From Acidobacteriaceae bacterium (GTDB taxonomy: Bacteria > Acidobacteriota > Terriglobia > Bryobacterales > Bryobacteraceae), in assembly GCA_019240405.1 (NCBI GenBank), contig JAFAYL010000021.1:1-64000 (forward strand): a DNA stretch of 64,000 nt, given 5' to 3'. Position 1 is the stretch's first letter. Each line of letters begins with the position of its first letter. The notes beneath the pieces are model-generated. The model worked only from the letters and a program-made list of their open reading frames with translations, searched no databases and was not told where the DNA came from. Below, piece after piece: positions 32,409 through 39,386 of the stretch. Made by a program: the position numbers and the translations under genes.

Positions 32409-33884
32409 ATGGATCGACGTACTTTTCATTGCACGATTGCCGGCGCCTGTCTCGCCAATTGGACCCTTAAGAAACCCGGACAACAGCGGCGAGTAGGGCC
32501 AACCGGAACGCAGTCGCCGGCACAAGCCGCTCCCGATGCCGGTCCAGTCAATGCAAATGCGCGCAGAATTGCATTGGTCATCGGCAATAACCAGTATGTA
32601 CGAGCGCCGCAATTGCAAAATGCCGTAAATGATGCCCGAGATCTCTCGGCCACACTGCAGCGGCTTAACTTTGAGGTCACGTCAGTAACGGATGCGAGCC
32701 TCAGCACCGTGGAAAATTCGGTCAGGCAATTTGCATCGGGTCTGCGAAAAGGCGACATAGCGCTATTTTTTTATTCAGGACATGGCTTGCAAGTAGAAGG
32801 AGAAAATTACCTGGTTCCCGTCGATTTCGATCTAGCTAATGGCGAGGCAGGCGTAAAGTCGAAATGCTTTCCATGCTCCAAGGCGCAACTAAGCATGGAA
32901 GCATCGGTAGTATGGATGCAGATTGTCATCTTGGATGCGTGCCGGAGCAACCCTTTCAGCTCTCGAGCGGCGGGAACGAAGGGCATGGCTATGCCTGAGG
33001 TGGACCAAGGGACTTACCTAGCTCTTGCTGCAGGTCCTGGGCAAACGGCGAGTGATAATTCCTCAGAGCGAAATGGCCTTTTTACAAAATTTTTATTGAC
33101 CGAGCTGCCGCGACCTGGTCAATCGATCGATCAGGTATTCGGCAGAGTCAAGAAGCAGGTTGCCGACGCTTCGCGCAATGCTCAAAGGCCCTGGCTTCAT
33201 GCTGACATTCTCCAGGAGTTTTTCTTCAATGACGCCGGAGCGCCAGAAGGCCAAATCGCTAGCCGACGCACTCTGCGCCTTCGGGATCTCCTAATGGAGG
33301 GGAAGAGACAACTTGCAGCAAAACAATTTCAAGATGCCGCGGATCTTTTCGAGCAAGCTACCCACATCGATCCTGAGGATCCGTTCACATATAACGCTCT
33401 CGGGGCAGCATACACCAAAATGCAGCAATGGTCTTTGGCCGTTGCGACCTTTTCAAAAGCAATTGAGCTCAGCCCGGGCTACGCGGCCGCTTATTTCAAC
33501 CGTGGTGTTGCATATCACAATGCCGGGCGTTATCAACTAGCTGTCCAGGATTTCTCATGGGCAATAGATGAAGAGGCTTCTGATCCTCTTCCGCTGGATT
33601 TGCGAGGACGGAGTTATTTTGCCTTGCTGGATTACGAACACGCCAAGGAGGACTTTGACCTGGCACTCGAGCTAAATCCATCCGACTCGGCGGCCCTGTT
33701 GGGTCGAGGGCGCGTGTATTTCCGGCAAGGCAATTTCCCCGATGCGATTGAAGACTTGAGCTTGTCTATCAGACTTCGGCCAACTGCTGAGGCGTTTCTA
33801 GTCCGCTCTCAGGCATATCGTGCGATCGGGCGAATGGCGCTTTCGGATGCTGATCAGCAGAGGGCAACGCGAACCCAGCATTAA
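32409..33884 (+). CDS. Caspase-like (C14) peptidase with C-terminal TPR repeats
   Basis: 491 residues. The N-terminus (MDRRTFHCTIAGACLANW) resembles a short Tat-type or other export signal, then a Pro/Ala-rich spacer. The caspase fold spans about 51-270: RRIALVIGNNQYV, then catalytic His125 in FFYSGHG and Cys178 in IVILDACRSNPF, both intact, and LALAAGPGQTASD after them. Residues 290-480 hold about five TPR units (NALGAAYTKMQQWSLAVATF, YFNRGVAYHNAGRYQLAVQDF). Bacterial metacaspase/orthocaspase relatives cleave after Arg or Lys or act in stress and defence responses; the target here is unknown. It is convergent, four bases apart, with a related protein that has lost the catalytic pair. Confidence 0.9.
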   Translation: MDRRTFHCTIAGACLANWTLKKPGQQRRVGPTGTQSPAQAAPDAGPVNANARRIALVIGNNQYVRAPQLQNAVNDARDLSATLQRLNFEVTSVTDASLSTVENSVRQFASGLRKGDIALFFYSGHGLQVEGENYLVPVDFDLANGEAGVKSKCFPCSKAQLSMEASVVWMQIVILDACRSNPFSSRAAGTKGMAMPEVDQGTYLALAAGPGQTASDNSSERNGLFTKFLLTELPRPGQSIDQVFGRVKKQVADASRNAQRPWLHADILQEFFFNDAGAPEGQIASRRTLRLRDLLMEGKRQLAAKQFQDAADLFEQATHIDPEDPFTYNALGAAYTKMQQWSLAVATFSKAIELSPGYAAAYFNRGVAYHNAGRYQLAVQDFSWAIDEEASDPLPLDLRGRSYFALLDYEHAKEDFDLALELNPSDSAALLGRGRVYFRQGNFPDAIEDLSLSIRLRPTAEAFLVRSQAYRAIGRMALSDADQQRATRTQH

Positions 33885-33888
33885 CGCA

Positions 33889-35421
33889 TCAGTGCTCGAG
33901 TGAAAGGACCGGCTCTTCGGCTTCCGTGAATCTATATTGAGGAGTTTGCAACCCTCCGCTGGATCGTTGGACTGATTGTGCGACATACGCGCACAGCGCC
34001 CGCGCGGTAATCAATCCGGTATGGTTGCTATCGGCCGTGCCGGAAAGCCCCTCAATCAAGGCCCGCGCGAAGAAGTTGCGTGAAAGCTCTCCGGTTTTTG
34101 CTTCTTGCGAGTCCTGGCCCGCGGACCCAGAGACCAGGATTGAGCGGCCCGTCGGCTCATCGAACAGGTCGAGCAGATAAGCGTTCACTAGTGACTTTCC
34201 CGGGAACGCCCAATCGGGGCCCAATGGATGCTGGGCATCGAAGAACAGCAGAGTGTGACGGCACCGTATTGACTTGTTCAGCAAAAATTGCAGCTCAGAG
34301 GTTTTAATTGCCGTCTCGCTGAGGCTGCGGCGCCTCGAATCGCTCGCCATGAGATACACCTGATTTGGTGAAAGTGGATCGTGTGCGCCCTGCGTGGCGA
34401 AGTAGATTAATAGGAAGTCCTCAGGCTTCGCCTGCGCCGCAAAATCGCCGAGCGCAGCTCGAATTTGCTCGGCTGTAGCCTGTTCATCCGTGAGAAGCCG
34501 AATGTTTGCATCCGAAAAACCGTGTTCTTTCAAAGTATCCGCAAGTTGCTTTGCGTCATAAGCGGCGCCGGGCAGCGGTGGCGGTCCCTCCTTGCCAGCA
34601 CTGAACTGCGACACTCCGATCAACAACGCAAATCTCTCGCCGGCTAAGCGAAGTTTGTGCGATTCGCTGTGAGGATACTCAATTGGAATAGAAACGCTGC
34701 GCCGATTCCCCTTTTTATCGATGGCTTCCACAGTCACTTCCTTCTGACCTCGCGAAACGGGCGCATTAAACATGAACGACAACTTCAAGGGACCGGCTGC
34801 GTTGGCCACGACTCTGCCGTCTACGGACAAACTCTCGACACCCGAAGCTGCGCTAGCTGTGCCTTTCAACTGAATGATGAAAGACTCCGCGCCCCCCGCA
34901 AACTGTGGAGGTGCATTCGGCTCATCAAGGTTTAGATCTGGAGGGACGCCACTTTCGTCGCTGGGCGACATACGTGAAACGAAACGGAAATCAGGATTGG
35001 CGGCGACGCCGCTACGGAGAATCCAGTTCTGATAATAGACGCGCGAACGTTTGTCTTTGCCGTAAACCTCAACACGATTCACAGCCGGTTCAAATAGGGG
35101 ATCCGGCCGCATACGAAGAGTAGAGGGGTCCATCGCCAGAAACTTGCCTCGTTCATTGGATCCGCTATTGAATATGTTTCCTGCACCCTTTCCGTTGATG
35201 CACACGTGAACGTCACCATACCCGAGGTTCCGATCTGCAGATCCCAAAACCTGGATCATCATTCTGGACAATGCCTCGGCAGGAATGTCAACAGTCACGT
35301 CTTTCCCGCCGCCAATTGGCGTTTTCCCTGGCGGCACGATCAGCTCAAAATATCCTGAACTTTGCTGCGAGAAACTGGCCGCGCACATGAACGCGGCCAG
35401 CACCCCAAACCGGACAACCAT
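33889..35421 (-). CDS. Secreted caspase-fold pseudopeptidase (catalytic His and Cys replaced)
   Basis: 510 residues. Signal peptide at about 1-19. Residues 24-140 and 175-250 look like two beta-sandwich (Ig-like) domains. The caspase fold follows (about 262-505): ERFALLIGVSQF, AAYDAKQLADTLKEHGF and the C-terminal RNFFARALIEGLSG. At the His position the sequence is YFATQGAHD, with Gln344 where GHG is expected, and at the Cys position FFDAQHP, with Gln397 for the nucleophile. Both catalytic residues are therefore missing and peptidase activity is not expected; binding or scaffolding is more likely. The ATG follows the stop of the M48 gene by one base, so the two are surely co-translated. Confidence 0.88.
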   Translation of the reverse strand: MVVRFGVLAAFMCAASFSQQSSGYFELIVPPGKTPIGGGKDVTVDIPAEALSRMMIQVLGSADRNLGYGDVHVCINGKGAGNIFNSGSNERGKFLAMDPSTLRMRPDPLFEPAVNRVEVYGKDKRSRVYYQNWILRSGVAANPDFRFVSRMSPSDESGVPPDLNLDEPNAPPQFAGGAESFIIQLKGTASAASGVESLSVDGRVVANAAGPLKLSFMFNAPVSRGQKEVTVEAIDKKGNRRSVSIPIEYPHSESHKLRLAGERFALLIGVSQFSAGKEGPPPLPGAAYDAKQLADTLKEHGFSDANIRLLTDEQATAEQIRAALGDFAAQAKPEDFLLIYFATQGAHDPLSPNQVYLMASDSRRRSLSETAIKTSELQFLLNKSIRCRHTLLFFDAQHPLGPDWAFPGKSLVNAYLLDLFDEPTGRSILVSGSAGQDSQEAKTGELSRNFFARALIEGLSGTADSNHTGLITARALCAYVAQSVQRSSGGLQTPQYRFTEAEEPVLSLEH

Positions 35422-35422
35422 G

Positions 35423-37081
35423 TTAACGCTTTGTAATGGCGTCTTTCAGCGTTGCTTTTGTGTTCGACCGGTTCGCGCTGCCATTTACCGCCACAGCAGC
35501 TGCCGGCGATGTCCGGCCAATATTTGCTGTTGAATCCGTATAGCTGGCTACCATAACTTCCGCATCGGACGGTAGCTTAGGTTGCCAGTCTTTTATGTCG
35601 CCATAGAGGGAAATGTATTCGTAAATAGTCTCCAGGTTTGGCGGCAATAATTCGAGCTTGCGCAATTCAACCTGAAATCGCGTATAGTCCGTGACGTACG
35701 TATCTAGTTCGGTTCCGACAAGTTTATGGTCGGAACTCTTTTGATCGATCATCTCCAGCGCATAGTGCAGGTGTGATCCGAAATTCTCATGTCGGTGATC
35801 GTACTGATCCGCCCGCTGGAAGCATTGCACGGCGAGTCTGCGGTCATCATCGCTCCGCGCAATCAGTTCTAACACTTTGCCGTAATAGTACTGAGCAGCG
35901 GGATCGTTATCGCGGGTGCTGACAGCATCGCTCAGATTGTTGCGTGCGAGGTCAAACATGTCATAGTAGTACGCCATGATGCCGTTATCGCGCTTCAGCT
36001 CGGCCATCAGATTCCGATATTCTCCCGTATCGCCAATGAAGCCTTTCTGTAGTTGTAACTGAATTTCGGCCTTATAGGCTCCTTCGATGAGTTTTTGTGC
36101 TTGCTCGCGCCGCTCCCGAATCCGGCTTCGATCACCGAGAAAGCCGAGTGTCATTCGCCTGTCTTTAGAACTCGCCGCCTCTAGAGTTTGGAACACTTTC
36201 GGAACCTCCCGAACGTCGTAACGAGAATCGAGCATAACCTTGAATGCGAGCTTGTCGGCCTCATCCTCCTGAGCGCGATCCCACGCGACAACCGCATGTT
36301 GATTCAGCAACACGCCCACGACTCCGCCGGCAAGGGCTCCAGCGAGTCCGCCAACTACGGCACCACCGCCGCTCTTCGTTGCAAGACCACCAGTCAAGGC
36401 CCCTGCCAAGCCGCCTATGACGGCGATACGTTCCGCCTTTTTTGTCTGATCAGCGTTATATGAATCCAGGCCCTGTTCCATCATTACGCGGTCCTTCCAG
36501 TGGTCTTGCTGTACGTGTTCCATCTCGTGAGCAAGCACGTACGCCAATTGAGCTTGGCTGTCGAGCATTGCGACCATCCCGGTCGAGATATAAATCGTTC
36601 CGGTCGCGAGGGTGTATGCAGTCGGGGTCGGGTTGGCGATTAACCGGAATGCGAATACGTGATCCGATCCCGGCGGGACAAGATTCTGACCTACGCGGTT
36701 GATCCAATTTTGAACGCGTAGATTGTCATAGCGCCTCTCATACATACGGAACCGATCTTCGTCTACCGCGACGAGGCGAGAACGATAACGGGGATTGGTA
36801 TTAAAATCGAAGGCGTATTCACTTTGCTCGCGCAGGCGTTCAGCATAGGCATCGTCCACTTGATCTCGGAAGTCGGGATCTGTCTCATACTTATCCTGGG
36901 AGTAGGTTTTAATCTTGTCGTAGATGCGAAGATTCTTCGCATCGCGCTTCTCCTCTTTCTCCCGCAAAGCGTCGTTCTTATTCTTCTCCTTGTCTTTGCC
37001 AAGATGAAACTGTGCATGAACGCACAGATTACCTGCTACAGTCATGGCCAATGCCATGCTCACGATCCGTACTAATTTCAT
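35423..37081 (-). CDS. Periplasmic M48 metallopeptidase with TPR-like C-terminus
   Basis: 552 residues. Signal peptide at about 1-23 (NLCVHAQ). A charged helical region follows, then the M48 domain: TGTIYISTGMVAML, zinc motif HEMEH at 185-189 and the third ligand in EDEADKLAFKVM near residue 275. A Gly/Ala-rich hydrophobic stretch (about 220-262) between the motif and the third ligand may be a membrane-associated loop. The C-terminal 230 residues are helical with TPR-like pairs (YYYGKVLELIARSDDDRRLA). The layout recalls BepA and Loi-like envelope proteases, which degrade or help assemble outer membrane proteins. Downstream partner is the pseudo-caspase; upstream is the 206-residue protein. 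Confidence 0.9.
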   Translation of the reverse strand: MKLVRIVSMALAMTVAGNLCVHAQFHLGKDKEKNKNDALREKEEKRDAKNLRIYDKIKTYSQDKYETDPDFRDQVDDAYAERLREQSEYAFDFNTNPRYRSRLVAVDEDRFRMYERRYDNLRVQNWINRVGQNLVPPGSDHVFAFRLIANPTPTAYTLATGTIYISTGMVAMLDSQAQLAYVLAHEMEHVQQDHWKDRVMMEQGLDSYNADQTKKAERIAVIGGLAGALTGGLATKSGGGAVVGGLAGALAGGVVGVLLNQHAVVAWDRAQEDEADKLAFKVMLDSRYDVREVPKVFQTLEAASSKDRRMTLGFLGDRSRIRERREQAQKLIEGAYKAEIQLQLQKGFIGDTGEYRNLMAELKRDNGIMAYYYDMFDLARNNLSDAVSTRDNDPAAQYYYGKVLELIARSDDDRRLAVQCFQRADQYDHRHENFGSHLHYALEMIDQKSSDHKLVGTELDTYVTDYTRFQVELRKLELLPPNLETIYEYISLYGDIKDWQPKLPSDAEVMVASYTDSTANIGRTSPAAAVAVNGSANRSNTKATLKDAITKR

Positions 37082-37113: not shown

Positions 37114-37734
37114 TCAACGAGTAAAGTTTTGTTGTGTGATGGTCGCCAGCAAGACGGCTTCGGCTCGACTGTGGGTCTTCGCCATAAACGTGTAACTCTT
37201 GCCAGCGGCTTTGATAGAAATTCGTCCAGGAGCTCCGCCCGTCACGGTAAACTCCTTTAATTCGGCAGGGTCAATGGTAACGGAATGCTCTCCGGAATCC
37301 GAAATGAACACGAGTTTCCCGGGCGAGACCGATATCTTGCCTGCGCAGTACTGGTTTATGATGTCGCCGTGCAGTGCGGCGAGGCGCTCATGCGAATGGA
37401 AGACCAGAAAACTTGCCTGTCCTCCGTTGGCAATGGCCTTCTCCATTACCGGTTGCGCTTTGGCAGCATCATGTTCACCGTAAAGATAGGCCATTGCTAG
37501 ATACTCGGCTACCTTCGCGTCGCTCTGGTCTTCCTCCCAAATAGCTTCCAGCTTGCCGGCGGCTTCCGAATACTTCCCGCCTTGAAACAGGCCGATGCCC
37601 TGGGATTTCAAATCTGCGAAACGCCCGTTCTGTTGAGCACCCAGCAGAGCACAGGAAAGAACAAAGACCGGGACGAAGTAAACACGTGGTCTTTGCATAG
37701 ACAACTGCTGGCTGAATTTCCGCGAGTTTATCAT
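37114..37734 (-). CDS. Small exported TPR-like protein, first gene of the M48 operon
   Basis: 206 residues from the ATG at 37734 (GGGGA about nine bases upstream); the ATG at 37698 would give a more standard signal peptide (MQRPRVYFVPVFVLSCALLGA). After the signal come two TPR-like helical pairs (FQGGKYSEAAGKLEAIWEED, AEYLAMAYLYGEHDAAKAQ), then a beta-rich C-terminal region (GKLVFISDSGEHSVTIDPAE, GRISIKAAGKSYTFMA) similar to small PH-like or single-strand-binding folds seen after TPRs. No catalytic motif. It lies 32 bases before the M48 gene. Function unknown; envelope location is expected. Confidence 0.8.
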   Translation of the reverse strand: MINSRKFSQQLSMQRPRVYFVPVFVLSCALLGAQQNGRFADLKSQGIGLFQGGKYSEAAGKLEAIWEEDQSDAKVAEYLAMAYLYGEHDAAKAQPVMEKAIANGGQASFLVFHSHERLAALHGDIINQYCAGKISVSPGKLVFISDSGEHSVTIDPAELKEFTVTGGAPGRISIKAAGKSYTFMAKTHSRAEAVLLATITQQNFTR

Positions 37735-38003: not shown

Positions 38004-39386
38004 ATGTGGCGCCATTATCTCCTCGCATTTGTGGTTGCTTCTGGTGCCGTGTTCCGAATTGCGATCGGCGAGGAACTGCCTCCACTTACTGGAAATATTG
38101 GAGCGTATGCGCGCTTACAGACGGCAGTGGTTTCGTTGAAGGCAGGTCAACAGGTCGAGGTGCTTGCGACGGGGTCGAAGGATCTAGCGATTGATGTTTT
38201 CGTATATGAAGAAGTTACTCGTGAACTGATAGCTAAGTCAGACGATGACGCAGTCGAGCCGTTCTCTTGGGATGTTCCAAAGACAGGCCGCTACTACCTG
38301 ATTCTGCGCAATGCCGGGAGCGGCACGGGTTCGTACACGATCAAAGTAACTCCGCAAGGTAACCGAGCGCTAGAGATTCTCCGTCCGAACGCAGCGGTTG
38401 TGAAAGTGTTCTATGCGACCGATCGAGTACGTGTCGCAAACGGCGGAGAGGAGATGCAGTTTGGCGGAGAACCACAGGAACATCTTCAATTTGGTGTTTG
38501 TAAAGTTAGTATTCCACGTGGCCACAAAATGGGAGAGCTGGAAGGGCCGAGTATCTTACGGCTCGAATTTAGAGAGGATGTTGCCAAGCACATCGTGCTC
38601 ATGGCGGCGAAACAGGAAGACGAGAGGCTCTTCTTCAGCGATATTTCGAACCGTGTCGAGCAATCCGCCCACAAGGAGATTTTGGTTTTTGTCCACGGGT
38701 TTAACACGGACTTTGAGAGTGCGGCCAGAAGGACAGCCCAGATTGCATACGATTTGGGGTTCGACGGAGCGGCGGTGCTTTATAGTTGGCCATCGCAAGG
38801 GCGGATCGGATTGGTGGACTACAACAAAGATGGTCGAAACGCAGAGCTCAGTGTGCCTCATCTGGTCGATTTTCTGACGAAACTGGCATCTCAGACCGGT
38901 GCCGAACGGATTCACTTGATAGCCCACAGCATGGGTAATAGAGTTGTCACTAAAGCTTTAGCTTCACTTGCGCCTGATCGGGGCGCACGGAGGAGAGTTC
39001 AACAAGTTGCACTCCTGGCCCCCGATATTGATGCTGCAGAATTTCGGCGTTTGGCCGCTGTGTTCAAGAGTGTTGCCGGACACGTCACTCTATACGCTTC
39101 CTCGAGAGATGAAGCTCTGAAGGTCTCCCAGCGATTGCAGGGCTACCCTCGAGCGGGTGAAGCTGGGCCGAATATCGTGATCATACCCGGGCTGGATACG
39201 ATTGATGCTTCAGCTGTGGATACCAGCATGATCGGCCTCTCGCATTCCTATTTCGCCGACAATCAATCGATTCTGAGTGATCTTTTCTACTTGATCCGAG
39301 GAAATCCACCCGCCGAACGGACCCGATTACGCCGTCAAGAGACCTCGGCTGGGATGTATTGGGCATTTGTTCCAGCAGTTCGTTGA
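38004..39386 (+). CDS. Exported DUF900 alpha/beta hydrolase with N-terminal PPC-like domain
   Basis: 460 residues, GGAG seven bases before the ATG. Signal peptide at about 1-22. Residues 25-115 look like a bacterial pre-peptidase C-terminal (PPC) beta-sandwich (VSLKAGQQVEVLATGSKDLA, GRYYLILRNAGSGTGSYTI). The DUF900 alpha/beta hydrolase domain follows: KVFYATDR, EILVFVHGFNTDFESAARR, the nucleophile Ser309 in LIAHSMGNRV, an Asp in LLAPDIDAAEF and a late His in GLSHSYFADN. Substrate is unknown; the family is lipase/esterase-like. The preceding 269 bases hold only leader and promoter region for this gene and for the divergent M48 operon. Confidence 0.88.
   Translation: MWRHYLLAFVVASGAVFRIAIGEELPPLTGNIGAYARLQTAVVSLKAGQQVEVLATGSKDLAIDVFVYEEVTRELIAKSDDDAVEPFSWDVPKTGRYYLILRNAGSGTGSYTIKVTPQGNRALEILRPNAAVVKVFYATDRVRVANGGEEMQFGGEPQEHLQFGVCKVSIPRGHKMGELEGPSILRLEFREDVAKHIVLMAAKQEDERLFFSDISNRVEQSAHKEILVFVHGFNTDFESAARRTAQIAYDLGFDGAAVLYSWPSQGRIGLVDYNKDGRNAELSVPHLVDFLTKLASQTGAERIHLIAHSMGNRVVTKALASLAPDRGARRRVQQVALLAPDIDAAEFRRLAAVFKSVAGHVTLYASSRDEALKVSQRLQGYPRAGEAGPNIVIIPGLDTIDASAVDTSMIGLSHSYFADNQSILSDLFYLIRGNPPAERTRLRRQETSAGMYWAFVPAVR

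Follow-up and report, generated by a model that had tools for sequence, protein, structure and literature searches.

A caspase homologue without its catalytic dyad, linked to a BepA-like M48 metalloprotease in an acidobacterial family

The gene that we analyzed lies in a stretch of 64,000 nucleotides of acidobacterial DNA (hereafter, the window), where it occupies positions 33889-35421 on the reverse strand. Judged from its sequence, the product of 510 amino acids, which we call the pseudocaspase, is a catalytically dead yet structurally maintained caspase homologue. Comparison with relatives by tree and gene order showed that its ancestor was a caspase with an intact dyad, encoded even then beside the same kind of M48 metalloprotease in the wider phylum. 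By parsimony, the catalytic Cys was lost once in the family, with subsequent changes of the His in three or more lines. The linkage of the dead caspase to M48 was shown to be stable.

Results

Structure of the pseudocaspase

The reading frame of the gene is intact, and the protein consists of a signal-like N-terminus, two Ig/FnIII-like domains (about residues 24-250), and a caspase domain (about residues 262-498). Residues 263-498 match PF00656 (Pfam Peptidase_C14) at an E-value of 2e-15, with 57.6 bits against a cut-off of 21.4. An AlphaFold2 model built from 12 aligned sequences had a mean pLDDT of 79, and its top Foldseek matches were MALT1, GSU0716, and metacaspases. The Pfam and Foldseek results place the protein in peptidase family C14 with regard to its fold, as the first-pass annotation had proposed. 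A search of PDB sequences with the pseudocaspase profile also found metacaspases and GSU0716, with an alignment that reached only the His region.

The alignment with dyad-keeping relatives showed that the positions of the catalytic His and Cys are occupied by Gln344 (CAG, 34390-34392, reverse strand) and Gln397 (CAG, 34231-34233, reverse strand), respectively, in agreement with the initial assignment of these two residues. That is, the His-Cys dyad of an active C14 peptidase is lacking. The acidic residue two positions before the Cys, which characterizes the acidic S1 pocket of C14B, is present as Asp395; it is Asp in seven of the eight members of the clade described below and Glu in the eighth. 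Presumably Asp395 is an S1-pocket residue, a role that we take from the structures of MALT1 and metacaspases. Asp289 is present in six of the eight members in the alignment.

The first-pass annotation had also assigned a signal peptide and two Ig-like domains to the N-terminal part (34657-35421, reverse strand). Two beta-sandwiches were indeed modelled there with a mean pLDDT of 84, and they matched RbmA, the FnIII modules of CbhA, and the Ig domains of NCAM with low TM-scores; the signal peptide remains a judgement by eye from the hydrophobic N-terminus.

Neighbouring genes in the window

The M48 metalloprotease gene (35423-37081, reverse strand) lies directly upstream, and the start codon of the pseudocaspase is one base past the M48 stop codon, as the coordinates 35421 and 35423 on the same strand confirm for what had been noted earlier. 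The M48 protein has a BepA-like catalytic region with the HExxH zinc site of BepA (HEMEH, residues 185-189) and an EDEAD motif, both intact. It matches the catalytic region of BepA (PDB 6ait/6sar, E about 1e-8; NCBIfam, E 1.6e-18, 66.8 bits), below the BepA family cut-off of 570 bits, and the match ends at residue 346 of 552. The first gene of the run (37114-37734, reverse strand) encodes a protein of 206 amino acids with weak TPR similarity, below the cut-off. Divergent from this run is a gene for a DUF900 alpha/beta hydrolase (E 5e-50) at 38004-39386 on the forward strand.

On the other side, a caspase-TPR gene (32409-33884, forward strand) is convergent with the pseudocaspase gene, with four bases between the two stop codons. 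Its catalytic His (CAT, 32781-32783) and Cys (TGC, 32940-32942) are intact within SGHG and DAC motifs, which agrees with the earlier description of this neighbour as an active caspase-TPR gene. In a comparison with known anti-phage defence systems, one PADLOC caspase model matches both the pseudocaspase (1.1e-14) and the caspase-TPR (1.6e-13); the PADLOC models gave no match for the M48, the 206-residue protein, or the DUF900 protein. The start of the caspase-TPR reads MDRRTF, and its relative in another genome of the family, G625, has SRRRYCLALGG near the start. Both resemble twin-arginine signals, and the RR motif could be a Tat signal.

Relatives within the family

A profile built from the N-terminal part was used to search the 237 genomes of the family, of which 27 matched at E 1e-5. 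Eight matched at E 1e-34 or better with a caspase domain following, namely the window, G625, G650, G751, G692, G727, G705 (split over two contigs), and G483. Two more, G743 and G501, matched at E 2e-13 and 5e-11, and the remaining 17, which were weak (E 9.5e-8 or worse, mostly to the second Ig-like domain only), were set aside. The module is thus rare (8/237), and none of the 16 genomes of the same genus has it. A further search of the family matched 142 of 200 genomes, the eight included, at E 1e-8; hits to the caspase domain only were set aside. A search of the genome contigs with the single protein found no relative.

The residues in the His and Cys columns are Q/Q in the window, Q/E in G625, H/G in G650, G751, G692, and G705, Y/N in G727, and C/S in G483. 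The Cys is therefore absent in all eight members of this group, which we call the dead clade, and the His in four. The first-pass annotation had asked whether the Gln pair is conserved in orthologues keeping the M48 neighbour. It is not: the pair is private to the window, the nearest relative G625 having Q/E and the others different residues, and what is shared by all eight is the absence of Cys. A functional motif made of the two Gln residues was ruled out by this lack of conservation.

The first-pass annotation had named a structure with His347 or another Cys in a catalytic position as a finding that would refute its reading. The alignment of the eight members places neither there, and it contains no conserved Cys at any position. 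His347 is found three residues beyond the catalytic column, and the four members with a true catalytic His have it as well. On this alignment, His347, His398, and an alternative conserved Cys were all rejected as catalytic candidates.

Dyad-intact relatives outside the family

A search of 396 genomes drawn evenly from the phylum gave 32 matches, of which 23 were weak (E 1.9e-12 or worse) and were set aside. The other nine loci, in eight genomes, contain the N-terminal part at E 5e-23 or better (G219, G339, G063 with two loci, G376, G172, G291, G051, and G346). G611, a further dyad-intact relative but with a looser M48 gene order, came from a sample of 299 genomes of the class. Both His and Cys are kept in all 10 of these M48-linked loci.

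In the trees, the eight dead and the ten intact proteins stand on opposite sides of one branch with a support of 100/100. By parsimony on the tree, the presence of Cys requires one change and the presence of His three; the same result was obtained without G611, and in that tree the identity of the residue in the Cys column requires five changes. Rooting with caspase-TPR proteins as the outgroup put the dead clade inside the M48-linked caspases of the same phylum that retain the dyad. The dead and the intact group came out as sisters in an earlier tree, which also contained the long-branched second caspase encoded in the window's genome. Under both topologies, parsimony makes the dyad the ancestral state. 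Orthologues with an intact His and Cys had been proposed at first as grounds for rejecting the dead-enzyme reading; such orthologues do exist, at the ten loci outside the family, but since a fully supported branch parts them from the dead clade, they show descent from an active-looking enzyme and do not refute that reading.

Several of these loci have features of their own. The dyad-intact gene of G376 (L138:4939-6345) has an in-frame TAG past the catalytic residues and before the last conserved block, which may be a truncation or a sequencing error; this sequence was cut at the TAG for the trees and omitted from alignment A1. G291 (L140:2032-11229) has, in one run, genes for an N-terminal caspase protein, an M48, the M48-linked caspase, and a WD40-like protein with a caspase domain at its end. 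In G063 (L137:9203-11218), a VMAP-C domain gene, caspase-like by eye at the N-terminus of its product, lies two genes past the M48-linked caspase.

Linkage to M48

The M48 gene adjoins the caspase gene in all 18 loci and in 17 of them it is immediately upstream and co-directional; in G705, it is upstream on the contig that bears the first part of the pseudocaspase. The exception is G611 (L036:1384-3735), in which the M48 is adjacent but divergent, the dyad is intact, and one Ig-like half is present. HExxH is kept in all 18 M48 proteins as well as in the M48 proteins of G743 and G501. A search of the 237 family genomes with the M48 found 10 genomes at E 1e-40 or better, which are the eight pseudocaspase genomes, G743, and G501.

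In G743 and G501, the gene directly after the M48 encodes a protein of 225 or 237 residues that matches the N-terminal part only and stops at the caspase boundary (profile E 1.6e-8 and 2.4e-6). These Ig-like-only partners are located at L155:1604-2281 and L156:6933-7646, and the latter is followed by a trypsin-like gene and then a TPR gene. The M48 proteins of G743 and G501 belong to the clade of the family (97/94), so the simpler explanation is that their partners have lost the caspase domain. The Ig-like part itself differs between loci: G063b, G051, G346, and G611 match its first half only, and G743 mainly the second.

Homologues of the 206-residue protein are encoded upstream of the M48 in G650, G692, G727, G705, G483, G219, G743, and G501. 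The contig ends before this position in G625 and G751, and BLAST found no homologue in the other eight fetched dyad-intact loci.

The second protease

A dyad-intact caspase-TPR adjoins the pseudocaspase in five of the seven assessable pseudocaspase loci (the window, G650, G751, G692, and G727). In G625, a dyad-intact caspase-TPR with 50% identity stops 57 bases short of the end of its contig, and 385 bases separate the pseudocaspase from the end of another contig; since these contig ends do not overlap, adjacency there is unproven. G483 and G705 have other neighbours by eye, a kinase-like gene and an unrelated gene, respectively. The gene of the Ig-like partner in G743 lies four bases from a different caspase-TPR gene, which by eye has GHG and DSC, and in G501 a trypsin-like protease and a TPR protein come next. 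Thus, the proposed tie to M48 was upheld at all 18 caspase loci and at the two domain-less loci, and a caspase-TPR is often, but not always, found beside the pseudocaspase; the tie to M48 is stricter than that to the caspase-TPR.

Within the fetched flanks, whose lengths vary, a second caspase was present in six of nine assessable family loci, pseudocaspase or domain-less, versus one of eight outside the family (Fisher two-sided p 0.05, with rows that are non-independent). G611 was left out of this count, and the downstream neighbour could not be assessed in G625 and G219. A protein kinase gene lies directly downstream of the caspase outside the family in G339 (by Pfam; L136:7695-9671) and in G063b, G051, and G346 (by eye; L141:3256-5112, L142:3347-5083, and L143:173-2026).

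When the caspase-TPR of the window was used as the query, 45 of 200 family genomes matched at E 1e-40. The best four non-self matches are all in pseudocaspase genomes (40-50% identity, at least 315 bits). They reach residues 456-488 of 491 and are the only ones to extend past residue 416 among the matches listed, and the next match had 213 bits. The caspase-TPR neighbour in G727 had 186 bits, below the caspases of many genomes without the module.

Constraint on the dead domain

Among the 28 pairs of the dead clade, the Ig-like part has a mean pairwise identity of 34%, the caspase domain one of 42%, and the M48 one of 48%. The corresponding values for nine dyad-intact loci (36 pairs, without G611) were 28%, 45%, and 38%. 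The mean ln-identity ratio of the caspase domain relative to the M48 was 1.20 in the dead clade versus 0.81 in the dyad-intact loci, the pairs being non-independent. This faster divergence would fit a relaxed catalytic constraint with the fold kept. Several positions are nearly fixed in the dead clade, namely D348-P349 (8/8), F394 (8/8), D395 (7/8), and the clade-specific W404 (7/8). Ser271 is invariant, and His347, Asp348, Asp395, and His398 are largely conserved.

Discussion

We tentatively favor the view that the pseudocaspase is an exported partner of the M48, in which the caspase domain would be a non-cutting scaffold or sensor and proteolysis would be provided by a neighbour. On this model, the lasting function is most likely that of the M48 partner, and the Ig-like N-terminal part may dock on the M48 or position it. 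The dead caspase domain would retain most of its presumed pocket for basic residues and may act as a binding module for substrates or for the neighbouring caspase, and the proteolysis that the domain once performed would now come from the second protease next door, usually the caspase-TPR. We infer the export from N-termini that look signal-like by eye; the docking, substrate binding, and hand-over are likewise inferences, as is the regulatory role proposed in the first-pass annotation. Since the M48 resembles the catalytic region of BepA, a role in envelope quality control is plausible. The partner model is weakened by the absence of the caspase-TPR in G483 and G705, its unproven adjacency in G625, and its low score in G727, by the faster divergence of the caspase domain relative to the M48, by the missing caspase domain in two genomes, by the variation of the Ig-like part, by the divergent M48 gene of G611, and by the rarity of the module.

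It is possible, though rather unlikely, that only the Ig-like N-terminal part matters and that the caspase domain is a leftover that is eroding, with the loss of Cys, then of His, and then of the whole domain. The two genomes that keep only the M48 and its Ig-like partner would suit such a course, as would the three or more changes of His following the loss of Cys and the raised divergence of the caspase domain relative to the M48. However, the caspase domain is in frame in all eight members even though identity in the closest pairs is no more than about 50-54%, it is better conserved than the Ig-like part just as in the active group, and the near-fixed positions outside the dyad (D348-P349, F394, D395, and W404) argue for its maintenance. 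An unlikely extension of the partner model is an exported two-protease system in which the M48 and its Ig-like partner form the core and the second protease is exchangeable. The latter would be a fused active caspase in the wider phylum and a separate caspase-TPR beside a dead caspase in the family; in a third state, the caspase domain would be absent and the second protease would be a caspase-TPR, or a trypsin-like protease with a TPR protein. The dead caspase would then be a receptor passing substrates or signals between the proteases.

The pseudocaspase may instead restrain, or activate, the neighbouring caspase-TPR protease as a decoy or dimer partner in the manner of FLIP, which we regard as improbable. 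An active-looking caspase-TPR does adjoin most of the assessable pseudocaspases, and its best four non-self matches lie in pseudocaspase genomes. According to the text of PMC3501461, negative regulation may be a function of dead caspase homologues in mammals. On the other hand, G483 and G705 have a dead caspase without a caspase-TPR, G743 has a caspase-TPR without the dead domain, and the stricter tie is to the M48. That the pseudocaspase is still an enzyme, by migrated residues or other chemistry, seems very improbable. Migrated catalytic residues are raised as a possibility in PMC10211241, and the invariant Ser271 and the largely conserved His347, Asp348, Asp395, and His398 could be seen in that light. 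The clade nevertheless has no Cys in common, with Q, E, G, N, or S in the Cys column, and His347 and His398 are outside the catalytic columns; Ser271 and His398 occur just as often in the dyad-intact relatives, so a new catalytic role is not needed to explain them. We give almost no weight to an error of sequencing or assembly or to a recently formed pseudogene. The genome of the window is a draft of 63 contigs, but a change from Cys to Gln takes three base changes, the frame is intact, and the relatives refute this explanation, as a separate genome, G625, has Q/E and a further six have lost residues in other ways.

Comparison with known systems

The M48 partner is like BepA, the beta-barrel assembly-enhancing M48 protease, in its catalytic region and differs from it in scoring far below the family cut-off. 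To our knowledge, BepA has no caspase partner. The caspase domain matches the EACC1-associated caspase model NF047832 (E 1e-19), but with 70.9 bits it is below the cut-off of 140, and it lacks the dyad. In animals, cFLIP and other pseudocaspase regulators have a dead caspase domain and occur alongside active caspases; we use them only as a working analogy.

Pseudo-orthocaspases are already known in bacteria, and the present protein is one in the usage of PMC6426788 (Klemencic et al. 2019), that is, a p20 homologue with one or both dyad residues replaced. According to the main text of that study, at least one dyad residue is missing from 858 of 9,994 bacterial orthocaspases, and Ig-like (Big_7) N-terminal motifs, comparable to the Ig-like part here, occur in orthocaspases. 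The Rhizobiales proteins described there most often have YS, YA, or FS, and QC (Gln at the His position, Cys kept) and HA (Cys lost, His kept) are among the dyads reported. In contrast to those proteins, the clade described here is acidobacterial and M48-linked, and the Cys is gone in all members; the terms 'acidobacteri' and 'm48' are missing from the main text of PMC6426788. The text of PMC3501461 (Asplund-Samuelsson 2012) states that 84% of bacterial metacaspases keep the dyad and that some are dead. Acidobacterial metacaspases are named there as keeping the dyad, the Acidobacteria are not among the phyla with less than 90% conservation, and that text contains no 'm48'. SyOC of Synechocystis is likewise a pseudo-orthocaspase, whose knock-out is more tolerant to oxidative stress in vivo (PMC7889975); the abstract of that report mentions no M48 partner. 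Our literature search on M48 and caspase, which covered mainly abstracts, found no paper describing the pair. The only bacterial paper found that mentions M48 and caspase together, PMC3355149, deals with them as separate proteins with a YARHG domain. No description of an M48-linked dead lineage turned up in the literature searched.

These comparisons put dead caspases next to a BepA-like M48 in a phylum distinct from the cyanobacteria and alphaproteobacteria, to which 90% of the described pseudo-orthocaspases belong (PMC6426788, main text). The lineage and its relatives form successive steps, namely a caspase with the dyad, one without it, and the absence of the whole domain, and the gene partner is the same throughout. 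Such a series allows one to test what a pseudoprotease does besides cutting.
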